A stretch of 15,633 nucleotides of DNA from Dehalococcoidia bacterium (GTDB lineage Bacteria > Chloroflexota > Dehalococcoidia > GIF9 > UBA5620). Positions 1,140 through 15,633 of the stretch are shown here, in pieces; within the stretch, counting starts at the first letter, position 1, and every line of letters starts with the position of its first letter. A program made the position numbers and the translations under genes. The notes under the pieces were generated by a model, which saw only the letters and a program-made list of their open reading frames with translations, made no database searches and was not told the DNA's origin. The DNA lies in the NCBI GenBank assembly GCA_016783225.1, contig JADHWZ010000029.1:1-15633 (forward strand). The letters run 5' to 3'.

Positions 1140-2114
1140 TCATTCATTTCTTATCTTAGCTCGTTGGTCTCTTTCCCATTTCTCATACCTTCGCCAGACC
1201 CTGAACCAAACACGAGCAATCGAATCAATTGCATCTGCAAGAACGGCCACACTAAGATCCTCAAAGGATATCGAGCCCAAAGACTGCCAGTTTCCCGAAG
1301 TGACATCGGTGTGGGCATACTGCTGGGGAACGAAGCAATACGAAAGGAGATAGGAATGCTGGCATATAGCACTCATGAAGTCCCACACGTTGCTATTGTT
1401 GGTACCCCACGAGATAATGAATTTCCTGTCGCATAGTATGTCGTCGGCTGTCTTCAGAAATGATGCTTGATATTCCCGGTCACTGCTTGGATCCCTCGAC
1501 GGGTACCCGTCTGGGTCATAGAGGAATCGCTCATTGTTCTCATCGATTCGGTAACAACGTCTGACCATATCATCCCACTCAGCTTCAACATGTCCGTGAA
1601 GATCCATTTCTTCTGAGAATCTCCTGCTGTCGCAGTGGAAGGGCACGTGTGCGTCTGCAACATAGTGACTTAGCATGAAAAGCAATAGCGCCACTTGATT
1701 ATCCGTCGGAGAAACGGGTGACCCTTTGTCCTCTCTTTCCTGTATTTTCAGATGATCGACCACTGAATGTGCGATAGATTCGCAACGATCAGGCAAGTTG
1801 TCGCACTTGTCAACCGTGAAAGATCTCTTTCTTAGAGGATGGCCTTTGCCGTGTTGATAGCCCAGGTAGGTTCCTGGAAGCCGTCTAAACCTGTTCTCAG
1901 CTTCAGCGGAAGGCGTGAGTTTAAGCACGTGACTGTTGGCCATGTCTTTTATCACTGAGTCAGGGTACCAGGCTCCTCGTATCACTCCGTCCTTATGGTT
2001 TTTGAACCATCTTATGAGGCTATTGGCGTACTTGCGGTTTGCATCGGGCAGGCTTGTTTCTTCCAGTCTTCTTATTGCCATAAAGGCTAGCCAGGCATGA
2101 GTGAATTTCTTCAT
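1140..2114 (-). CDS. Zinc-dependent phospholipase C / S1-P1 nuclease superfamily hydrolase
   Basis: 324 aa, ATG 2114 with a purine-rich GGGGGG ribosome site. The metal-ligand pattern of bacterial zinc phospholipase C is visible: H6 near the N-terminus (B. cereus enzyme His14), D52 in WYPDS (Asp55), H62 (His69), H150/D154 in HYVAD (His118/Asp122), H160 in VPFH (His128), and H175/E179 in GHVEAE (His142/Glu146). The spacings 4-6-15-4 compare with 4-6-14-4 in the B. cereus enzyme. The HYVADAHVPFH stretch nearly matches the family signature. These enzymes cleave phosphodiester bonds of phospholipids or nucleic acids with three Zn ions. There is no signal peptide, and no processed N-terminal Trp to serve as the Trp1 ligand, which is unusual for a family that is normally secreted. 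It is the last gene of the accessory cluster. Substrate unknown; fold assignment fairly sure. Confidence 0.75.
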   Translation of the reverse strand: MKKFTHAWLAFMAIRRLEETSLPDANRKYANSLIRWFKNHKDGVIRGAWYPDSVIKDMANSHVLKLTPSAEAENRFRRLPGTYLGYQHGKGHPLRKRSFTVDKCDNLPDRCESIAHSVVDHLKIQEREDKGSPVSPTDNQVALLLFMLSHYVADAHVPFHCDSRRFSEEMDLHGHVEAEWDDMVRRCYRIDENNERFLYDPDGYPSRDPSSDREYQASFLKTADDILCDRKFIISWGTNNSNVWDFMSAICQHSYLLSYCFVPQQYAHTDVTSGNWQSLGSISFEDLSVAVLADAIDSIARVWFRVWRRYEKWERDQRAKIRNE

Positions 2115-2211
2115 CGTAACCCCCCATTCAATTACTCGGACTTTTTGCTCTTCACGTCAAGGCCAGCCGTGGATGGCCGGACAGACGGCGGTCGCATTGG
2201 CCAACAGCCAT

Positions 2212-2234
2212 ATGGGCGAACACAGAGCTCGCCC
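2212..2234. repeat. 7-bp inverted repeat (hairpin) between the transglutaminase-like and phospholipase C-like genes
   Basis: TGGGCGA and TCGCCCA flank a 9-nt loop. It lies just downstream of the transglutaminase-like stop codon. No T tract follows on the minus strand, so it is not a classical intrinsic terminator; it could stabilise a 3' end or be incidental. Confidence 0.4.
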
Positions 2235-2241
2235 AACCCGT

Positions 2242-2604
2242 TCACAGCCTGTGAAATTCCAACAGCTCAAGCGTAGCAGGATCTCTGACATCCCAGCAAA
2301 CCAGCCTTTCAGCACGCCGACTGATACTCGCTACCACCTTATCATATATCTGGTAATTGCCGAGTCGGAATGAGTAATTGTCGAAGAAACACAACCTGCC
2401 TTCCGAAGGTGTGAATGCACAAACTGTATGGCTGGCCTGAAACGGCCTTACCATAGCCGTAACCAGAACTGGGCTGCAATTCGGGTTCCACTCGCGGAGC
2501 AGCTCGGCAGCCAAGCTGGCGAAACCGTCACAGTCATCCTTCTTCTTGGCCCAGGTTACCTGTGGGTAGCTGATGCAGTCGAACAGGTGAAAAGGTCCGT
2601 CCAT
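2242..2604 (-). CDS. Transglutaminase-like cysteine protease domain, C-terminal portion
   Basis: 120 aa from ATG 2604. The transglutaminase/cysteine-protease triad is visible: C25 in KKDDCDGFA, H59 in ASHTVCAF, D75 in CFFDNYS. The segment before Cys (YPQVTWAKKKDDCDGFASLAAELL region, residues 13-36) is typical of bacterial transglutaminase-like peptidases. Members cleave or cross-link peptide bonds via a thioester. The ATG follows an in-frame TAG (2608-2610) by one codon, and the upstream frame (2611-2832) appears to encode the missing N-terminal helix, so the gene is probably one 196-residue ORF broken by a nonsense codon (TGG Trp to TAG would fit the context). If translated alone it has only a weak ribosome site and would depend on coupling to the upstream ORF. 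No signal peptide is visible. Confidence 0.65.
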   Translation of the reverse strand: MDGPFHLFDCISYPQVTWAKKKDDCDGFASLAAELLREWNPNCSPVLVTAMVRPFQASHTVCAFTPSEGRLCFFDNYSFRLGNYQIYDKVVASISRRAERLVCWDVRDPATLELLEFHRL

Positions 2605-2607
2605 TGT

Positions 2608-2832
2608 CTACGTAACCTGCCTCAGACACGCTTCGATTTCTTCTAACGAGCTGGCTGCAGGGAGAGCAGTGTGGAGATAACGACGCTCACATAATCGGCG
2701 ACGCAACCGCGACCAACCGTACCGACCGGTACGAAGCCACCAGATTAAGAAGCAATCGACTATTGATTGCACAATGCAAAGCGCAGCCCAGGAAACCCTC
2801 GACACTCCATCAGCCAATAGCCTGTTGTGCAT
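2608..2832 (-). CDS. N-terminal fragment of the transglutaminase-like gene, ended by an amber codon
   Basis: 74 aa from ATG 2832, 9 nt after the stop of the I9-like gene; no Shine-Dalgarno, so translation would rely on coupling. Residues about 13-33 are hydrophobic (possible membrane segment or signal anchor), followed by a basic stretch. The last residues (SLEEIEACLRQVT) look like the helix that precedes the core in transglutaminase-like proteases and run in frame through TAG 2608-2610 into the 120-aa ORF. TAG is a regular stop in this region (all six larger intact genes from 2842 to 8001 use it), so programmed readthrough or pyrrolysine is less likely than a mutation or sequencing error. 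Confidence 0.45.
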   Translation of the reverse strand: MHNRLLADGVSRVSWAALCIVQSIVDCFLIWWLRTGRYGWSRLRRRLCERRYLHTALPAASSLEEIEACLRQVT

Positions 2833-2841
2833 GGAGAAAAG

Positions 2842-3090
2842 CTACTGCGTGACTATCCGTTTTCGCGCAAGTTGCTCCGGCCTAATTGTCACCCCACCCA
2901 CAAGTTTGACACAGGGTAGTTTCCTTACCTCACCTGCAAAGCAGTTGTCAAATGTAGCTATGATAGCTTTTCCCTGCCCTGTGATAATGTCTACGTTCCC
3001 ACCGAGAGTCTTTATGGTGGAGATCGTCCTGTCGGTAGCTTCAGGTGTGAAGCCTTCTTTAAGAATAACCAAGAAATTCTGTAGAGCCAT
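2842..3090 (-). CDS. Peptidase inhibitor I9 / subtilisin-propeptide-like small protein
   Basis: 82 aa, ATG 3090 behind a GGGGAG ribosome site, 24 nt after the PASTA gene stop. The order is beta (FLVILKEG), helix (ATDRTISTIKTLGG), beta (NVDIITGQGKAIIATF), helix (AGEVRKLPCV), beta (KLVGGVTI), which resembles the stand-alone I9 inhibitor or the propeptide that folds and inhibits subtilases. No protease domain is fused. A cysteine-protease-like gene follows directly, so a protective or chaperone role for a neighbouring hydrolase is conceivable, though I9 inhibitors classically act on serine proteases. The assignment rests on pattern, not on invariant residues. Confidence 0.6.
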   Translation of the reverse strand: MALQNFLVILKEGFTPEATDRTISTIKTLGGNVDIITGQGKAIIATFDNCFAGEVRKLPCVKLVGGVTIRPEQLARKRIVTQ

Positions 3091-3114
3091 GGAGATCTCC
3101 CCGGTACTGTCTTG

Positions 3115-4524
3115 CTATGGTGGGAAGCCCCCTCCCTTTGAAATCGTAAGACTGATGGGTGTTCCTGCAGCGACCTCCGCACCTTGCCGGGGCTTCTGTG
3201 CTATTATCATGCCTTCAGGCTTGCCGCTTTTTCTCCAAGCAATGTTGCCTATTCTGAGATCGTTCTCTCTGGCAACTCCTTCAGCTTTCTCTCTGTTCAA
3301 TCCCAGTAGACTAGGCACACGAACGACTTGAGGCTTTGACACTACAATGTCCACCGCAGTGTTGATTGGCACCTTCGCCCCGGACCTTGGTCTCTGCTCA
3401 ATTACAATGCCTGGTTGTTCTCTATCGCGTCTCTCTGTAATCCTACCTACGCGAAGCTTGGCTCCTGCAAAGATGTCAGCAGCTGACTCTTTTGGCATAC
3501 CCGTTACATTAGGCACAGTGACTACTTCAGGGGTTGCAGTGACCATATCCACCTGAGTCCCCACAGGAACCTCTTTGTCAGGTCCAGGGCTCTGCTCAAT
3601 CACAGTACCCTCGGTTTCTTCACTTGGGGCTTTCGCAATTGCACCTACGTTGAGCCTCGCTTTCTGAATAGCTCTCCTTGCGTCTTTGAGTTTTCTTCCA
3701 ACCACACGGGGCACCGCAGCCATTTCGAGCTTTGCGATCAGCAGATCGATTGAGGTCTCAACTCGCACCAGAGTACCGGCAGTTATGCTCTGACTGATCA
3801 CAGTGTTTGGTCGCGAATCGCTGAATTCCAGAGTCATCTTGCCTACTGTGAGCTTTGACTTCCCAATCATATCAATGGCATCATCTTCATTCATGCCAAT
3901 GAGGTTAGGCACTCGCACCTCCTTGACCTTACAGATTATCAGAGCGACAGAGCTTGCGATTGGAATTCTGGAATAAGGGGCTGGATGTTGCTCAATCACA
4001 GTTCCAGGTGCAGCCAGACTGACGCGCTCCGCTATTTCGCCTTTCGCAAGTTTGGCCTTTCTAATACAGTCCAAGGCTGCATCCACATGCATTGCTATTA
4101 GATTGGGAACCTCCATCGTTCCAGGCAGTGCGGCCGGGGCTTTAGGGGTCGGCTTTATGGAAAAACGGAGAGTGCTCAGACTCTCGGAAGAAGCGACCTC
4201 TCCCGATCTGGGCAGCTCGAAAGCTATGCTACCTCGTTCGTCCAGGGTGACGTTTACTTTGAGATCAGTGTCAAGGTTACTGACCACATAGTTAATAGGC
4301 CCTTCACGGCCCCTTAGTCCATCCTGCATCTTCTCCAAGGCAGCCCCAAACGAAGATAGCAGATTGTCGGGGCTGAGCTTTGGTCGTTCCGTTTGGAGAG
4401 CGTGTAGCTCTCCCTCCAGATCCTGGATTCTCTTATTCAAATCCGCTATTGCCTGGTCTTTGGCTCTTATGGCTTCTTTGGCCTCTCGTAATTGGCGCTT
4501 GATGCTTTCTATGTCTTGTGGCAT
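3115..4524 (-). CDS. Coiled-coil protein with five PASTA repeats
   Basis: 469 aa, ATG 4524, six bases after the stop of the 139-aa gene, with a weak ribosome site, so probably translationally coupled. Residues 1-48 are a charged coiled coil; 50-128 form an unrecognised beta-rich domain (contains NYVVSNLDTDLKVNV); then five tandem PASTA domains at about 138-199, 203-265, 269-330, 335-397 and 401-463, each opening V-P-x-[LV]-x-G and carrying the GTVIEQxP-type turn. PASTA domains normally lie outside the cell on Ser/Thr kinases or PBPs, binding muropeptides. Here there is no kinase, transpeptidase, signal peptide or membrane helix, so the protein appears cytoplasmic or exported by an unusual route. 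It may act as an elongated scaffold. Stop is TAG. Confidence 0.85.
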   Translation of the reverse strand: MPQDIESIKRQLREAKEAIRAKDQAIADLNKRIQDLEGELHALQTERPKLSPDNLLSSFGAALEKMQDGLRGREGPINYVVSNLDTDLKVNVTLDERGSIAFELPRSGEVASSESLSTLRFSIKPTPKAPAALPGTMEVPNLIAMHVDAALDCIRKAKLAKGEIAERVSLAAPGTVIEQHPAPYSRIPIASSVALIICKVKEVRVPNLIGMNEDDAIDMIGKSKLTVGKMTLEFSDSRPNTVISQSITAGTLVRVETSIDLLIAKLEMAAVPRVVGRKLKDARRAIQKARLNVGAIAKAPSEETEGTVIEQSPGPDKEVPVGTQVDMVTATPEVVTVPNVTGMPKESAADIFAGAKLRVGRITERRDREQPGIVIEQRPRSGAKVPINTAVDIVVSKPQVVRVPSLLGLNREKAEGVARENDLRIGNIAWRKSGKPEGMIIAQKPRQGAEVAAGTPISLTISKGGGFPP

Positions 4525-4530
4525 TTCTCT

Positions 4531-4950
4531 CTACGCCCCCTCTATCATGACGGGAGGAGGGATACAGACTACCTTAGCTCTTAGCACGCTCGTTCCAGCT
4601 GCTTCGTAATCAAACAGGCTCTTGTAAGATGCATTGAGTGGAGCTGCGTACAAAACCGGTTTCCAGACTACTGGCTTTCCCTCTTCTTTCTCTTCCTCTT
4701 CTTCCCAGTGCATTGAAACAGACATCTTGATTTCGATATTGGTTTCTGGCAGATGATACCATGTGGCGTGCAAATCATAGCCTAGCTCTTCTCTCTTATC
4801 TGCGAGCTCTACTTCCGTGGCAATCGAGTTTTCATCTAATGCTCTCTGAGCCTCCGCGATTGCACGCCCCACGTGCTTAAGCAGTTCACCCAAAGGTGCG
4901 ATCAGAACTTCTGTGACTCTCTCTCCTACCTCGTTAGACTCGTTCGGCAT
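4531..4950 (-). CDS. Uncharacterised protein, paralogue of the adjacent 162-aa protein (DUF2589-like architecture)
   Basis: 139 aa, ATG 4950 with a strong AGGAGG site 7 nt upstream. The N-terminal helix (AIAEAQRALDENSI) and later IEIKMSVSM and NASYKSLFDYEA...LRAKVVCIPPP segments align with the 162-aa protein encoded just upstream. It has an acidic insert (EEEEEKEE, about residues 82-90). No transmembrane segment or signal peptide. The layout (N-terminal helix, amphipathic beta strands, polyproline end) recalls DUF2589-type proteins, but I cannot confirm the family from sequence alone. It sits six bases before the PASTA gene, so the two are probably co-translated and may interact. Confidence 0.7.
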   Translation of the reverse strand: MPNESNEVGERVTEVLIAPLGELLKHVGRAIAEAQRALDENSIATEVELADKREELGYDLHATWYHLPETNIEIKMSVSMHWEEEEEKEEGKPVVWKPVLYAAPLNASYKSLFDYEAAGTSVLRAKVVCIPPPVMIEGA

Positions 4951-4992
4951 GTCTTGTCCTCCTACGTCTTTTCAACCTACACCCCGAAGTCT

Positions 4993-5029
4993 CCCCAGAG
5001 GGGACTCCCTGATTGAGACCCCTCTGGGG
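4993..5029. repeat. Perfect 11-bp inverted repeat between the two paralogues
   Basis: CCCCAGAGGGG (4993-5003) and CCCCTCTGGGG (5019-5029) with a 15-nt loop, between the 162-aa and 139-aa genes. On the minus strand no T tract follows, so it is not a standard intrinsic terminator. Likely an mRNA hairpin that separates or tunes expression of the two paralogues. Confidence 0.7.
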
Positions 5030-5058
5030 TTGGGAGCACCTTCAACTTGACTTCCTCC

Positions 5059-5547
5059 CTAGTCTTCAGGAGCAGAATAAGGTTCGAACTCGGGTATCAG
5101 CCGCGGCGGTGGGGGCACTGGCACCAACGTGGTGCGCAGCAAGCTGGAGGCTTCCGCCTTATAGGAATACTTCTGGCTGTAGCTAGCGTTGACACTGGCT
5201 GACCAGCAAGCGAATCCTATTTTGCCTTTCGCGGTAACCCCTACCTCTTTGGTCTTGGTCATACTGATGGCAATCTTAACCTCAATGACGCTCTCAGAGA
5301 ACTGGTAGAAGGTAGGGTTGATACCGAATTGGAGCAGCGTCATCGTCGCAGACTGCGAGGTCCAGTTCCCACTCGCATCTTCAGTGAATCGTAATGGCAC
5401 AGTGATTTCGCTAGCCGTATCGGACAGCTCTAGCAACGTCTCGATCGAATTTCGGTCCAGTGCTGACTGAGCCTCAGCGATAGCCATTCCAAGCTTTGTC
5501 ACCAACTGCGGAAAAGGCGCGTTCAAAACATCGTTACCTACTGCCAT
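5059..5547 (-). CDS. Uncharacterised protein, paralogue of the 139-aa protein (DUF2589-like architecture)
   Basis: 162 aa, ATG 5547 behind AGGAGG. It shares the helix AIAEAQSALDRNSIETLLEL, the strand IEVKIAISM and the terminal block NASYSQKY...LLRTTLVPVPPPP with the 139-aa protein. The last 22 residues are proline-rich and acidic. No membrane segment or signal peptide. Two diverged copies next to each other suggest a hetero-oligomer or layered assembly together with the PASTA protein. The best resemblance I can offer is the DUF2589 type of phage- or island-borne structural-looking proteins, held loosely. Stop is TAG. The ~500 bp upstream contains a truncated patatin and a repeated leader unit rather than another intact gene. 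Confidence 0.7.
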   Translation of the reverse strand: MAVGNDVLNAPFPQLVTKLGMAIAEAQSALDRNSIETLLELSDTASEITVPLRFTEDASGNWTSQSATMTLLQFGINPTFYQFSESVIEVKIAISMTKTKEVGVTAKGKIGFACWSASVNASYSQKYSYKAEASSLLRTTLVPVPPPPRLIPEFEPYSAPED

Positions 5548-5707
5548 TTCTTACCTCCTAATATGATATGATCTAGTTCGTTTGCCACCCGCACCCGCCA
5601 GAACCAGACTGCCCACAGCATGGGATCGAACCGGTGACTTGTTCTCCAGTCAAGCTCATCCGTCACGTGCAGAGGCAACTTGCCTTCTTTGTGTGCCTTG
5701 AATTATC

Positions 5708-5824
5708 TCATCTGCATAACCTCCTCTCAAATGCCAAGCAAGCGGCGCCGATGAGGCCTACTCCCTTGACGCCTCCACCTTCGAAAACGGCGTCAGCCTT
5801 AAGGCTATTTCCTTCCTTCATCAT
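5708..5824 (-). pseudogene. Truncated N-terminus of a second patatin-like phospholipase
   Basis: A 38-codon frame from ATG 5824 reads KADAVFEGGGVKGVGLIGA, the beta-strand and oxyanion-hole loop (G-G-G-x-K-G) that opens RssA-type patatins, and then stops at TGA 5708-5710 without reaching the GxSxG nucleophile. No downstream frame restores it. A weak GAGGG site precedes the start. The sequence differs from the intact patatin at 6064-7080 (DGGGIRG type), so it is not a duplication of that gene but the remains of a second, different patatin, lost by deletion. Too short for automatic gene finders. Confidence 0.65.
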
Positions 5825-5913
5825 TTCCCTCGTTATTATCTAGCGTAGGGTGCCAGTTCAACCTCAGTCTCTAGCTTCTTTCGTGCCTACTGATGTAACC
5901 CATGCTTTCGTCC

Positions 5914-5997
5914 TCAGCCCGCTTCAGTCCATGCACTGACGACACGAAGGGCATCGGCAACCGCCACCAAACAGCCACTCCAGTGCCCTTGCGTCAT
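5914..5997 (-). CDS. Leader ORF, copy 1 (27 aa)
   Basis: ATG 5997 with GAGGAG 9 nt upstream. The peptide MTQGHWSGCLVAVADAL... matches the start of the 60-aa leader ORF at 7989-8171 and, more loosely, the 28-aa ORF at 7158-7244. An in-frame ATG at 6003 is the alternative start, but the spacing favours 5997. It stops 89 nt before the truncated patatin. Between copies 1 and 3 most base changes alter the amino acid, so coding function is uncertain; the hairpin inside it may be what matters. Confidence 0.4.
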   Translation of the reverse strand: MTQGHWSGCLVAVADALRVVSAWTEAG

Positions 5998-6066
5998 ACT
6001 CATTGTCTCCTCTCACTGAGTGCGGACCGTTCGCAAGCTTATTTCACTCGGGAGTTGTTGATTCTA
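5930..6066 (-). repeat. Repeated ~137-nt leader unit, copy 1
   Basis: Minus-strand order is TAGAAT, 15 nt, GAAATAAG, 40 nt, ATG-A-x-G-CAAGGGCACTGG, hairpin (arms at 5947-5953 and 5984-5990), then GCATG. The unit aligns without gaps to copy 3 (8104-8240); both are 137 nt. The TAGAAT begins exactly at the patatin stop codon, so the unit starts inside the end of that gene. The 7-bp stem AAGGGCA/TGCCCTT is intact, with one C-A mismatch before further pairs. Confidence 0.7.
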
Positions 6067-7080
6067 GCGAGCAGCCACCAACAAGTCGGCAAAGGAATCC
6101 AACTGACTGTCGAATTTTTCAGCAATGCTAGTCCCGTCTTGTTGCAAAGCAGCAAGATTCTCGGTTGAGGTATCATCCATGTCAGGACTGGCATAAAGGA
6201 GATCATGATTGACTCTTAAGTACTGTTCGGAGCGGCCAACTGAATCAAAGACCTGAGATACTTGATAATCCACGGTTTCTGAAACAGCAGACATCAGAAT
6301 GTCCATTATAGGTCTAATCCAGCTGAGAGCCCCCCAATCTTTGGCCTTTCTATAACTGTATTGTTTCTTGATATATCCCGTACCAATGGACAGGATGGCC
6401 ATGTCTATCGCAGTTGGTTTGCTATCAAACTTCTGCCTTGCTTCCGCATATGCGCAAAGTGTTGGATTGTTTGCGAATATGCCGCCGCCAATCACCGGAT
6501 AGGGAACGTTTGTCAAAGACTTCATCATCTTGGCTTCAAAGAATGTCGGTTCTGCTGACGTAGCTCTAGCAATATCCCTCACTAAGTAATCGTGCATCTT
6601 CTTTTCTTTTGCATCGAGTTGGTTAAAGAACTTTGCCCTTCTCCTCTTGATATCGTAGGCAGTGACAAGGCAAGGCTTGAGAAGCTCACTGAGCCTCAGC
6701 TCTCCGAAGTAGTTTTTCAGAGCTTTTTCCAGTTCTCTTGCACTGTACCTCTCATCTAATAGACCACCGAGCGCCCGAATCCTCTGTGAAAGTGACGCAT
6801 CAAAAATCTGCTGTCCTCTTTTCAGATATAGGTCTACAGCTTCCTCGGCTGAAAAGCGCGGTCTTGTCGGATTGCCGTTGAAGTCAGGGCAGAGATAGAC
6901 ACAGGTCAAGATTCCACCAGTGCTCGTTCCGGCTACTAGGTCAAAGAAGTCCGCGATTCTGGCATCTTGATTTCCCTCACGTTCTTTTAGTTTTCGCTCG
7001 AGTGAGAGTAACACTTGTCCTGGAATGATACCTCGAATGCCACCTCCGTCAATTGATAGAATGCGGGTTAATTTCGCCAT
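6064..7080 (-). CDS. Patatin-like phospholipase, catalytic Asp replaced by Gly
   Basis: 338 aa, ATG 7080 with a GGAGG site. The patatin fold is clear: oxyanion loop DGGGIRG (residues 11-17), nucleophile elbow GTSTG with Ser53, the TFFEA region (about 179-183), and the segment at 196-206 that in the family reads DGG-x-x-x-NNP. Here it reads VIGGGIFANNP, so the dyad aspartate is Gly198 (codon GGC at 6487-6489; GAC would be Asp). Family members hydrolyse phospholipid acyl chains; the CapV-like branch acts as a membrane-degrading effector in CBASS. No cyclase or sensor gene is present here. With the Asp missing, hydrolysis is doubtful unless another acidic residue substitutes. No signal peptide. 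Stop TAG. The gene is preceded by leader unit copy 2. Confidence 0.88.
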   Translation of the reverse strand: MAKLTRILSIDGGGIRGIIPGQVLLSLERKLKEREGNQDARIADFFDLVAGTSTGGILTCVYLCPDFNGNPTRPRFSAEEAVDLYLKRGQQIFDASLSQRIRALGGLLDERYSARELEKALKNYFGELRLSELLKPCLVTAYDIKRRRAKFFNQLDAKEKKMHDYLVRDIARATSAEPTFFEAKMMKSLTNVPYPVIGGGIFANNPTLCAYAEARQKFDSKPTAIDMAILSIGTGYIKKQYSYRKAKDWGALSWIRPIMDILMSAVSETVDYQVSQVFDSVGRSEQYLRVNHDLLYASPDMDDTSTENLAALQQDGTSIAEKFDSQLDSFADLLVAAR

Positions 7081-7157
7081 GATTGCACCACCTCCAGCTT
7101 ATTTTCTACCCTTATAGGTCACTAACCTTGGGTTATCTGCTCCCAACTAGACGAGCT

Positions 7158-7244
7158 CTAAGTTCGTCTGATTCTGCTCCAAACCAAAGAGGCACCAGCA
7201 ACCGGCACCAAACAGCGCTCTTGGTGCCCTCGTTTGGGCCGCAT
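7158..7244 (-). CDS. Leader ORF, copy 2 (28 aa)
   Basis: ATG 7244 opens MRPKRGHQERCLVPVAGAS..., related to the leader peptides of copies 1 and 3 (GHWxxCLxAVAxAL). The base aligned to their start codon is not ATG here; the ATG used lies six bases further upstream, only 2 nt after AGGGG, which is poor spacing. A one-base deletion after the hairpin shifts the frame relative to the other copies. It ends 77 nt before the patatin start. Real translation is doubtful. Confidence 0.3.
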   Translation of the reverse strand: MRPKRGHQERCLVPVAGASLVWSRIRRT

Positions 7245-7264
7245 CTCCCCTTGCGACCCAGCTT
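7189..7264 (-). repeat. Repeated leader unit, copy 2 (shorter, diverged)
   Basis: From AAGCTGGGT through the GAGGGCACC...GGTGCCTC hairpin, this aligns with copy 3 without gaps up to the second hairpin arm. The upstream TAGAAT and GAAATAAG boxes are not conserved. The outer stem pair is G-C where copies 1 and 3 have A-U, a compensatory difference, and one G is bulged. Confidence 0.65.
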
Positions 7265-7338
7265 GCATCTGAGGGGGGGAGTATCGACCAGGGACTTTGG
7301 GAAGGGATTTGGCTCTTGGTGGCAAACATAGCAACGGG

Positions 7339-8001
7339 CTAACGAGCGCTTAACTCCGGAGGACGGTCGGGTGAGACTATCAGTGTAAACTGCTGCACCT
7401 CAGAAGGTGTCTGGCCTGACTCAATGGTTAGAGCTAACGTGTAGTCGTGGTTCGGTAATGCCCAGTCCGAGTGCAGGGTGATGCGGTCTTTGATCAGGCC
7501 CGCCAGTTCTACACTATAGGGCCAAGTTATCCACTCGGCGCCTCTTTTTTGAGCTCTTACAATCCGGACTGTCGCAAAGCCAGCGGGGTTGATTGCATCT
7601 GGCATATCGAGATAACAACTCAGCTGATAGTCCGTTTGATGGACTGCGAACTCAGCCCGTGCCGTGCAGTCTGTTGCCCCTCCTTCTCCATCGTTGTCTA
7701 CTCGAACGACAATGTCATGAATGTTTGTGCCTGTGGTGATAGGTCTTATGGAAGTAGCGTCTATGACAAGGTAGGGCTCTTGGTTTTCATTCACTGCTGA
7801 CAAGCCTAGCCCACCCAAGAACAAAAGGAAACTGACCGCTATGCCCATTATTGTTCGTGGTATTTTCATCCAGTCCTTCTTTAGCACGGCCAAAGCTATG
7901 GTTGAGAATAGGCACAGCACAGCTACTACAAAAAGAGTGACTACTATCTGAGGCAAACAAGGATATATGTAATCTGTAAACAGAGTCGTTAGCGATTCCA
8001 T
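7339..8001 (-). CDS. Membrane protein with two TM helices and a CARDB-like beta domain
   Basis: 220 aa, ATG 8001 behind GGAGAGG. Two hydrophobic helices lie at about 15-40 (PQIVVTLFVVAVLCLFSTIA) and 50-70, joined by a short KKDW loop. Residues 75-220 form a predicted beta-rich domain; the VRVDNDGEGGATDCTARAEF pattern resembles the N-x-G-x-x-A strand-turn of CARDB/DUF11 Ig-like domains. No enzymatic motif is visible. Its start overlaps the end of the 60-aa leader ORF by 13 nt, suggesting coupling. As the first large gene after the promoter it could anchor the cytoplasmic products of the cluster to the membrane. Stop TAG. Function unknown. Confidence 0.75.
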   Translation of the reverse strand: MESLTTLFTDYIYPCLPQIVVTLFVVAVLCLFSTIALAVLKKDWMKIPRTIMGIAVSFLLFLGGLGLSAVNENQEPYLVIDATSIRPITTGTNIHDIVVRVDNDGEGGATDCTARAEFAVHQTDYQLSCYLDMPDAINPAGFATVRIVRAQKRGAEWITWPYSVELAGLIKDRITLHSDWALPNHDYTLALTIESGQTPSEVQQFTLIVSPDRPPELSAR

Positions 8002-8171
8002 AGGCTCACCCTCTCCTTCAGTTCACTATTGAAAGTGGCTATGTGGGGCCTCTTATTGCCGTTTTGTCTAATAGCCGCACAAGTAACATCTTGGCTAGCC
8101 TCACATGCTCTTGAACTAAGAAGGGCACCAGCAACCGCCATCAAACAGCGATCCCAGTGCCCTTGCTTCAT
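7989..8171 (-). CDS. Leader ORF, copy 3 (60 aa), overlapping the membrane-protein start
   Basis: ATG 8171 with GAGGAG 8 nt upstream and a good promoter 57 nt before it. The first 17 residues (MKQGHWDRCLMAVAGAL) match copy 1; the rest is unrelated to it. It terminates at 7989, 13 nt inside the next gene in another frame, so ribosomes finishing it could restart at ATG 8001. A hairpin (8121-8164) lies inside the coding region. It may be a regulatory leader peptide or a small protein. Confidence 0.5.
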   Translation of the reverse strand: MKQGHWDRCLMAVAGALLSSRACEASQDVTCAAIRQNGNKRPHIATFNSELKERVSLWNR

Positions 8172-8240
8172 CCGCTTAACTCCTCGTAACCCAGCTTATC
8201 TCGCTTGTAGACTTATTTCGTATATGGCCATCGCATTCTA
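8104..8240 (-). repeat. Repeated ~137-nt leader unit, copy 3
   Basis: The most complete copy, running from the -10 box TAGAAT to GCATG. The perfect 8-bp arms AAGGGCAC (8157-8164, minus) and GTGCCCTT (8121-8128) can extend to 11 pairs in RNA with two G-U wobbles. Copy 1 has TAGAAT, GAAATAAG, ATG, both hairpin arms and GCATG at identical offsets. Confidence 0.75.
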
Positions 8241-8264
8241 GCCCTCACTCATACTGGTTGTCAA
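8235..8264 (-). promoter_or_regulatory. Sigma70-type promoter for the accessory cluster
   Basis: On the minus strand TTGACA (8259-8264), 18-nt spacer, TAGAAT (8235-8240): a perfect -35 and a five-of-six -10. It points at the 60-aa leader ORF and the membrane-protein gene. Expected transcription start is near 8228. The -35 hexamer is not present ahead of copy 1 of the repeat. Confidence 0.7.
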
Positions 8265-8386: not shown

Positions 8387-8785
8387 TCAGTCGAGCATTG
8401 CCACCGCGTCGATCTCAATGAGCGCTCCTTCGCTCAGCAGGCTTTTGACGATGATGCCAGTGGACGCAGGGAAACTCTCCCCGAAGTACTGCTGCCGTAT
8501 GTCAGCAGTCGCTTTGTAATTCTCTTTACTAGTGATGTAGTCTGTGGTCCATACCACGTCTTCGAAGGTAGCTCCGGCAGCTTCCAAGATAGCCTTGAGC
8601 TTCTCGTAAATCACTTCGGTCTGCTCAACAATGTTTCCTGCAACTACTGGCCTGTTTGTAGCTGGATCGATTAGGGTAGCATCCGTGCCGCTGATGAAGA
8701 GCATGTTGCCCTTGCGTACCGCTGGTGCAAAAGTCAGACTCTTGTATGCTTCCCAGCCCGGGTTTATCATTGTCTTTTTGCTCAC
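8387..8785 (-). CDS. RidA/YjgF/UK114 family protein lacking the canonical arginine
   Basis: 132 aa, GTG 8785 chosen because GGAGG lies 7 nt upstream (the internal ATG 8770 has none). Family features are visible: the NPG...FAPAVRKGNMLFISG N-terminal strand pair, the helix region EQTEVIYEKLKAILEAAGATFEDVV and the C-terminal IEIDAVAML strand. RidA trimers hydrolyse reactive enamines/imines such as 2-aminoacrylate. The arginine that binds the substrate carboxylate (Arg105 in E. coli, in P-A-R-S) is replaced: here the motif is FPASTG, with Ser108 at that place. Such members often belong to pathway-specific Rid subfamilies with other substrates. Single gene upstream of, and separate from, the accessory-cluster promoter. 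Confidence 0.88.
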   Translation of the reverse strand: MSKKTMINPGWEAYKSLTFAPAVRKGNMLFISGTDATLIDPATNRPVVAGNIVEQTEVIYEKLKAILEAAGATFEDVVWTTDYITSKENYKATADIRQQYFGESFPASTGIIVKSLLSEGALIEIDAVAMLD

Positions 8786-15324: not shown

Positions 15325-15633
15325 TGAGGTGGACCCCATCCTTAGGACAGGATAGAGGCTGTCTTAAGAGTGGGTACCACTATCCTCAAGAGGTCTAGTG
15401 TTAGAGATTCTACCATACCTGTACTGGTGGCTTCTACCGGGGTTGAGGTGAATACCTCGGCCGGTGTCCGGTAGCCGAGAGCCTGGTGAGGGCGCTCGGT
15501 GTTGTAGAAGCGGAAGTAGTTACCAAGACCGATTCTGGCTTCTCTGCCATCCTGATATGCTTTCAGATATACTTCCTCGTATTTCACTGACCGCCACAGC
15601 CTCTCGATGAACAGGTTGTCGTTATAGCTTCCT
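15325..15633 (-). mobile_element. Right end of an IS3-family insertion sequence
   Basis: The transposase frame enters from the right edge, and the stop codon is 17 nt from TGAGGTGGACCCC, an IS3-type terminal sequence (TG start, GACCCC core). The left end and any target duplication lie outside the window. It has landed about 160 bp upstream of the acyl-CoA dehydrogenase start. Confidence 0.7.
15342..15633 (-). CDS. IS3-family transposase OrfB, C-terminal part
   Basis: The frame is open to the right edge of the window; 96 codons are visible before TAA at 15342. It reads SYNDNLFIERLWRSVKYEE, the DDE-domain helix with the catalytic Glu (FIERLW), then the conserved YFRFYNTERPHQALGYRTPAEVF end of rve integrase cores in IS3 transposases. 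A 35-residue tail follows. The true start lies beyond 15633; the internal Met near 15587 is not the start. Confidence 0.9.
   Translation of the reverse strand, partial: GSYNDNLFIERLWRSVKYEEVYLKAYQDGREARIGLGNYFRFYNTERPHQALGYRTPAEVFTSTPVEATSTGMVESLTLDLLRIVVPTLKTASILS

Follow-up and report, generated by a model that had tools for sequence, protein, structure and literature searches.

We know of no function for proteins of the DUF2589 superfamily (PF11655); matches were obtained in four genomes, and in two of these a pair of DUF2589 genes flanks a third gene. PASTA repeats are found in PknB/Stk1 kinases and PBPs, and both PASTA and OmpA domains normally act extracellularly. In this study, we analyzed a window of 15,633 nucleotides (the whole stretch of DNA, as distinct from any feature in it) in which four genes, here named A to D, encode proteins comparable to these and to subtilisin propeptides (I9) and DAHP-synthase FXD domains. 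An earlier note had proposed a block of eight genes or gene remnants behind one promoter as an undescribed system, and no description of the gene set was found in the literature. The minus-strand open reading frames and their order agree with that note. What stands of the proposed system is a four-gene core (A, B, C and D), whereas the lipases, the protease-like gene and the membrane protein do not hold as members. The features of the window are as follows:

1140..2114, minus strand: neighboring gene, zinc-PLC/S1-P1-nuclease-like protein of 324 aa (PF00882 subthreshold)
2242..2832, minus strand: neighboring open frame that is broken at an in-frame TAG (2608-2610) and whose likeness to cysteine proteases was seen only by eye
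2842..3090, minus strand: D, small protein of 82 aa with a predicted subtilisin-propeptide (I9)/DAHP-synthase FXD-like fold
3115..4524, minus strand: C, 469 aa, with a coiled coil, an A-like beta domain and five PASTA repeats
4531..4950, minus strand: B, 139-aa paralog of A
4993..5029, minus strand: hairpin with an 11-bp outer stem between A and B, from RNA folding and shuffle z
5059..5547, minus strand: A, 162-aa core protein
about 5700..5820, minus strand: remnant, 5' end of a second patatin-like gene (GGG-x-KG motif, after which the frame is lost, by eye)
6064..7080, minus strand: neighboring gene, patatin-like protein of 338 aa lacking the catalytic Asp
7339..8001, minus strand: neighboring gene, membrane protein of 220 aa
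8235..8264, minus strand: promoter-like site with 11 of 12 consensus matches

The promoter that had been reported is present as TTGACA-18-TAGAAT, in a region with nine promoter-like sites versus a mean of 6.0 (sd 2.2) in shuffled sequences. Gaps inside the block, taken from the ORF coordinates, measure 516 bp between the patatin gene and A and 258 bp between the 220-aa gene and the patatin gene, and they make one common transcript for all genes less than certain.

Composition of the four-gene core

None of A, B and D matched a family above cut-off in any library scanned. A search with A at E 1e-3 returned 126 proteins, including A itself. The HMM-HMM search that the earlier note had suggested was run for A and matched DUF2589 with an hhalign probability of 96.2 (E 2.7e-9, 160 columns), which represents profile-level homology over the whole domain in one pairwise comparison with seven proteins on the DUF2589 side. 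With HMMER, PF11655 had no match at E up to 1 among 27 relatives of A and none above the gathering score in 10 module genomes (0/10, best E 0.54). Judged by its profile, A is therefore a remote relative of DUF2589 that lies below HMMER detection. Alignment of A with B gave a probability of 99.8 (E 6e-28), and B alone gave 3.7 against DUF2589. The "DUF2589-like pair" of the earlier note thus holds in the sense that A resembles DUF2589 by profile-profile comparison only and B is a paralog of A, both proteins belonging to one superfamily related to DUF2589. AlphaFold2 (AF2) predicts a helix plus long beta hairpins for A (pLDDT 69.3, pTM 0.48). Since this model is weak and has no fold match in the PDB, the assembly discussed below is one that we infer.

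Protein C is the PASTA scaffold of the earlier note, and its five repeats were confirmed by Pfam (E 1.2e-65). Although it shares these repeats with the PknB/Stk1 kinases and PBPs, C differs from them in lacking any above-cut-off match to a kinase or a transpeptidase, in having no transmembrane segment or signal peptide by hydropathy, and in carrying instead a coiled coil and an A-like domain. Its N-terminal 140 residues matched six proteins, C itself included. By eye, the beta domain of C has a likeness to A.

The fold of D was predicted by AF2 with a pLDDT of 82.6, supported by fold matches and an alignment across 27 loci. The model has the beta-alpha-beta-beta-alpha-beta order of I9 and DAHP_snth_FXD (Foldseek and VIA-align 2 matches), so that D, as had been proposed, is I9-like by predicted fold. 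Its sole match to an I9 or FXD family was to DAHP_snth_FXD in Pfam, with 22.3 bits against a cut-off of 27. In contrast to the subtilisin propeptides and the FXD domains of DAHP synthases, D is encoded by a stand-alone gene, and family searches identified neither a protease nor a DAHP synthase among its neighbors in the window.

Distribution of the core and near-absence of export signals

The refuting case named by the earlier note, that homologs of these genes never co-occur in other genomes, is contradicted by the co-occurrence of the core genes across phyla. A second gene of the A/B family was found in all 88 loci, C in 43 and D in 28 (E 1e-3, counts that include the window and the seeds of the models). 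All 13 other type-C loci carry the four genes together, 12 of them in the order D-A-B-C; these counts were obtained at E 1e-2 for L006-L077 and by a separate search for L121-L123, and D of L011 and L031 was detected only in the E 1e-2 search. Those loci come from Proteobacteria, Aquificota, a MAG labeled Acidimicrobiaceae and Methanocalculus, and larger relatives with several paralogs of A are present in Bacteroidota, Chlorobi, Chloroflexota, Clostridia and haloarchaea. The undescribed system of the earlier note can therefore be redefined as the PASTA coiled-coil protein, the 139/162-aa paralogs and the I9-like protein. Patatin, which had been listed with the PASTA protein and the paralogs as a neighborhood to be scored for conservation, did not share in it, having no phmmer match in other loci.

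The identity matrices of the core proteins were also correlated. Across 14 type-C loci the correlations were 0.78 for A/B, 0.73 for A/C and 0.62 for B/C (0 of 2000 permutations each), values that are inflated by the close relatives among those loci, and across 12 loci they were 0.35 for A/D (2 of 2000 permutations) and 0.48 for B/D (1 of 2000). The three proteins A, B and C diverge in parallel, and all four genes recur as a set in different phyla. A compact set that extends from Aquificota to methanogens and haloarchaea, and for which no family name, function or structure was found, represents a gap in the prokaryotic parts list.

Export signals were sought by hydropathy in 355 core proteins and were seen in none of 59 B, 43 C and 28 D proteins and in one borderline case among 225 A proteins. 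The window's own A to D have no N-terminus resembling a signal peptide, in agreement with the earlier note. This absence is hard to square with the normally extracellular PASTA and OmpA domains. One explanation is that the module is left over from, or related to, a contractile particle of the phage-tail type, as release by lysis would account for cell-wall-binding domains without export signals. In L076 the gene directly upstream of D-A-B-C encodes a tail-tube protein (Phage_T4_gp19, E 3e-36), and PG_binding_1 proteins with no signal peptide evident by eye adjoin the module in L018 and a DUF2589 gene in L131. We nevertheless regard this origin as highly improbable, as a tail gene occurs at one of 88 loci among the neighbors searched, PHROGs gave no match for A, B or D, and no relative of A was found in viral contigs or phage records. 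The coiled coil of C matches two PHROGs families of unknown function. A phage or plasmid origin of the core was rejected, based on the lack of relatives of A in viral contigs and phage collections and a single record in plasmids.

Lipase-, protease- and hydrolase-type neighbors

The earlier note had counted two lipase folds in the block. The patatin fold is well supported (PF01734, E 3.9e-20; 73.3 bits versus a cut-off of 27.7), and the nucleophile motif GxSxG is present as GTSTG, but in the alignment with patatin-17 the window protein has Gly at the position of the catalytic Asp of the Ser-Asp dyad. The zinc-PLC likeness lies below the Pfam cut-off (PF00882, 19.6 versus 26.8 bits); this 324-aa protein has 596 relatives, and 22 of the 120 listed have PF00882 and/or PF02265. 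The cysteine-protease-like gene exists as one frame split by the TAG, and neither piece, nor the read-through, had a Pfam family at E 0.1. The proposed membrane anchor has hydrophobic segments (19-residue hydropathy maximum 2.88), and all its family matches are below cut-off. Judging from their sequences, the patatin gene and the broken frame look degenerate.

All four neighbors were rejected as members of the system. A phmmer search (E up to 1) with the patatin, the PLC, the broken frame and the membrane protein against the ORFs of 88 loci gave no convincing match outside the window; the sole weak one, in L088 (E 0.0035), was obtained with the N-terminal piece of the broken frame. The lipase- and protease-like genes therefore look like unrelated, partly decayed neighbors of the core, an indication that striking neighbors of this kind can be bystanders. 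Two more specific candidates were also set aside. A CBASS assignment of the patatin falls under the NCBIfam cut-off (NF041079, 170.6 versus 200 bits) and its better PDB match is plant patatin-17, yet PADLOC phospholipase-effector models match it (E 1.5e-63); no cyclase was present among the nine window ORFs scanned with PADLOC. The zinc-PLC was considered as a shared effector since PLC-like proteins adjoin the module in L046 and L007 (30% identity over 157 aa between the two, that of L007 having no Pfam match), but BLAST detected no similarity between the window PLC and its L046 counterpart. PF00882 matches occurred in 12 of 40 module genomes, with only two, both in L046, placed beside the module among those whose contigs were resolved.

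An unlikely alternative, which the earlier note had in part envisaged, is a system for conflict or membrane attack whose effectors (lipases, proteases and cell-wall hydrolases) are exchangeable and in which the core serves as scaffold or sensor. The PADLOC matches of the patatin speak for it, as do neighbors at other loci: DUF6765 proteins in or beside the core operon together with zinc-PLC-PLAT proteins in L046 and PLAT-repeat proteins in L068, a cellulase directly behind a second C-like frame in L077, in L028 and L121 a weakly DUF7379-like protein with, by eye, an alpha/beta-hydrolase fold and with a frame that overlaps C, the PLC-like protein of L007, and a PG_binding_1-Peptidase_M15_4 protein just upstream of D in L018. 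However, the window's own effectors lack convincing phmmer matches at the other 87 loci, the patatin and the protease-like frame are damaged as described above, and a hydrolase adjoining the core was named in 4 of 13 other type-C loci (L018, L028, L077, L121) among the neighbors scanned. In addition, PADLOC had no match for the window's A, B or D or for 27 relatives of A (0/27), and its matches with C fall in the PASTA repeats or the coiled coil, so that support for a conflict role is weak. A true effector link nonetheless has some room, given that hydrolases of different families adjoin the core in several other genomes.

Quite unlikely, in our estimate, is a role of the core as adaptor module in a signaling or conflict network, comparable to that of Trypco2 adaptors in VMAP ternary systems. 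Trypco2 (PF19631) had weak matches in 3 of 27 relatives of A (best E 0.027), which are under the gathering score (24.2 bits), and two genes behind the module in L027 are vWA-like by eye, whereas Pfam gives just OmpA, in one of them. PMC7159879 reports, for iSTAND ternary systems, accessory domains that similarly include OmpA and PASTA. In contrast to VMAP Trypco2 systems, ATPase and peptidase partners are absent among the core neighbors scanned, and no trypsin, MoxR ATPase, vWA or STAND was named in 48 Pfam-scanned protein entries, some of them window or core proteins.

A possible cytoplasmic assembly

Our preferred reading, to which we give slightly less than an even chance, treats A to D as a conserved core operon whose products assemble into a hetero-oligomer in the cytoplasm, a function that we infer. 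In such an assembly A would be the abundant main subunit, with the hairpin either protecting its message or causing partial termination, and B a lower-copy variant subunit. C would join via its beta domain and extend its coiled coil and PASTA arms as a tether, the arms perhaps reaching peptidoglycan or its fragments. By analogy with the I9 propeptide and subtilisin, D may help A, B or C to fold, or may cap beta edges. The patatin, zinc-PLC, protease-like and membrane genes would have arrived separately beside the core and partly decayed. The linkage of A, B, C and D provides DUF2589-superfamily proteins with partners and a testable assembly model. A wider version, which we judge fairly unlikely, would make D-A-B-C the minimal form of an undescribed bacterial and archaeal assembly in which A is the polymer of a ring, filament or shell made in the cell, an I9-type protein is the chaperone, PASTA, OmpA or lectin arms are displayed, and lineage-specific hydrolase cargo meets the cell wall without Sec export.

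The hairpin between A and B matched no known RNA in an Rfam search of the window. Its gap is borderline, with a z of -2.68 when the stop codon is included (1000 shuffles) and -1.72 without it. Counterparts were identified in L006, L018, L034 and L123, so that a hairpin follows A in five of six measurable type-C A-B gaps, counting the borderline one of the window; the A-B gap of L011 has no hairpin (z -0.66). The hairpin after A hints at excess production of A. When all loci are taken, a z below -2 occurs in only 24 of the 84 gaps that follow A, and gaps of other kinds reach such values as well (9/23 preceding A after another gene, 3/7 preceding B after another gene, and 5/10 between B and another gene).

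Recurrence and types of the core operon

HMM-based examination of 88 loci for A, B, C and D indicated that these four genes (encoding proteins of 162, 139, 469 and 82 residues, respectively) form a core operon that is very probably real. Besides the window itself, the loci comprised the best 80 of 231 stretches encoding an A relative (one genome per GTDB species, one peptide pattern), six stretches obtained by genome searches and a single plasmid locus; within them, L033 and L124 are probably one contig (equal contig and gene lengths), and L066 and L125 are both from genome G033. Since all loci but the window were fetched via A, only the partner genes count as evidence. At least two A/B-family genes were found in all 88 loci, a count that includes model seeds and rests on A and B models that partly detect each other's families, with C in 43 and D in 28 at E 1e-3 (these counts, too, include seed sequences of the models). 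The distribution of the module, the A–D set, is sparse: 1/400 in Chloroflexota, 2/146 in the order of L046, 6/101 in that of L028, and 1/8, 2/199 and 1/198 in the classes of L011, L034 and L076, respectively (centre genomes included throughout).

The window's operon type, type C, was found in 13 other loci (L006, L011, L018, L024, L028, L031, L033, L034, L076, L077, L121, L122 and L123), with L079, a close copy of L077, excluded from this count and from the identity-matrix correlation. Gene order is D-A-B-C in 12 of the 13 and D-A-A-B-C in L077, unlike in the window, where D is behind C. Among A, B and C, identity matrices are correlated at 0.62–0.78 (14 type-C loci; 0/2000 permutations); the matrix of D correlates less, at 0.35 with A and 0.48 with B (12 loci). 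These correlations fit inheritance as a unit, with close relatives and shared species history contributing to them.

Type A (Chlorobi, Chloroflexota, Cyanobacteria and others) has the order D-A-A-paralogue-coiled coil, and type B, mostly from Bacteroidota, is a ten-gene operon. The sole type-B locus scanned, L039, encodes three more A proteins, a TPR protein and a protein with weak similarity to L7/L12; PASTA occurs on its C- and B-type proteins, and an OmpA domain is embedded in an A-type protein with two A-type segments (L039:6781-8613). Type D was found in Clostridia, Fibrobacter and methanogens, with DUF4332/HHH domains in both B proteins scanned (L046 and L059) and additional small helical genes, TPR-like by eye.

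Neighbouring genes in the window and elsewhere

Read in the direction of transcription, the minus-strand block of the window begins with genes for a 220-aa membrane protein and a patatin-like protein, followed by a patatin 5' remnant (recognised by eye), A, B, C, D, a broken frame and a gene for a zinc-PLC-like protein. Two further features are:

8387-8785: ridA-like gene, upstream of the minus-strand gene block
8264-8235, minus strand: promoter-like site

The earlier note had proposed all eight genes as one system; our analyses narrow that proposal to A–D, with the lipases and the protease-like frame of the window as likely bystanders. When the zinc-PLC, patatin, membrane protein and both pieces of the broken frame were compared by phmmer with six-frame ORFs of the 88 loci, the single match outside the window was a weak one, of the N-terminal piece of the broken frame in L088 (E 0.0035). 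An in-frame TAG interrupts the broken frame, which has no match in Pfam, even when read through. The patatin matches PADLOC phospholipase-effector models (E 1.5e-63), and its catalytic Asp is replaced by Gly in alignment to patatin-17. The zinc-PLC is a member of a large conserved family and has 596 relatives, versus 126 for A (E 1e-3, A itself included, in a search reaching only proteins with shared short words); judged from these counts rather than from genomes, most relatives of the zinc-PLC probably occur in the absence of the module.

Hydrolases bordering the core elsewhere are diverse: DUF6765 and a zinc-PLC-PLAT protein (L046), DUF6765 (L068), a GH5 cellulase behind C-like frames (L077), weakly DUF7379-like proteins (L028 and L121), PG_binding-M15 (L018), Metallophos (L035) and a weak C25 (L055). 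They could be named in 4 of the 13 other type-C loci, an uncontrolled count. A D-like segment lies in a glycosyltransferase-like ORF (named by eye) at L077:7624-9891 and L079:7227-9803, and a tail-tube gene (Phage_T4_gp19; L076:510-941) immediately precedes D-A-B-C in a MAG labelled Acidimicrobiaceae.

Homology, folds and export signals

A Pfam scan found five PASTA repeats in C and no family above cut-off for A, B or D. Comparison by hhalign shows that A and B are paralogues (99.8). At the profile level, A matched DUF2589 (96.2, E 2.7e-9, one pairwise comparison), and B alone did not (3.7). The earlier description of the pair as DUF2589-like thus holds as remote homology of A but not as membership, as HMMER found nothing over cut-off for PF11655. 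The predicted model of D (alignment from 27 loci) has a good ferredoxin-like fold, its best fold rows being the DAHP synthase FXD domain and I9-type propeptides and inhibitors; that of A is poor and matched nothing in a fold search.

No description of the module was found in open-licence literature. In an Archaeoglobus transcriptome (PMC3949148), AF0414–AF0417, a cluster of short DUF2589-related genes, is reported as up on lactate. We would place the module with DUF2589-superfamily operons, a kind already known but uncharacterised.

The main puzzle is that proteins of module operons carry PASTA, OmpA and laminin-G arms, yet A–D proteins appear by hydropathy to be without export signals: none of 59 B, 43 C or 28 D proteins had a signal-peptide-like or TM segment, and one of 225 A proteins had a borderline N-terminus. 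In an Anaerolineales MAG, a 1546-aa protein in the module operon combines six laminin-G-like domains with a PASTA repeat at its C-terminus (L066:2807-7447). The PG_binding_1 protein of L131:467-1426, whose gene adjoins a DUF2589 gene, shows by eye no evident signal peptide, echoing L018. Tentatively, and with slightly less than even confidence, we envisage a cytoplasmic hetero-oligomer in which A would be the main subunit, B a variant subunit, C a PASTA tether and D an assembly helper.

Intergenic hairpins

Hairpins after A hint that A may be made in excess. Six of the 14 type-C A-B gaps are long enough to fold (at least 28 nt with the stop codon; the other eight are at most 18 nt), with z values (1000 shuffles) of -2.68 (window), -2.36 (L006), -7.7 (L018), -2.97 (L034), -2.96 (L123) and -0.66 (L011), L034 and L123 being close relatives. 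Without the stop codon, the window gap reaches only -1.72, with 12 of 200 shuffles as good. At other gaps, a hairpin with z < -2 comes after the last A in L002, L046, L056, L068, L080 and L120, and after an A preceding another A in 13 loci, of which nine are from Bacteroidota. Over all loci, z is below -2 in 24 of the 84 gaps that follow A, compared with D-to-A 0/16, B-to-C 0/4, C-to-A 1/7, C-to-other 0/4 and other-to-D 0/8. Nevertheless, A is not alone in this, because other-to-A (9/23), other-to-B (3/7) and B-to-other (5/10) gaps show the signal too; B-to-A gives 0/1 and other-to-other 1/2.

At the right edge of the window lies an integrase core (rve_3) fragment (15342-15632, minus strand). 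A separate hairpin element has no Rfam family, and an exact pattern search of viral contigs and the fetched loci gave no match. In its consensus fold, 2 of 20 pairs are preserved by changes in both partners, and the copy at 7187-7264 is barely more stable than its shuffles (z -1.18). Its three window copies (8120-8197, 7187-7264 and 5946-5997, minus strand; 52–74 nt, 63–87% identity) each lie upstream of the following gene or gene remnant, at a distance of ~105–125 bp.
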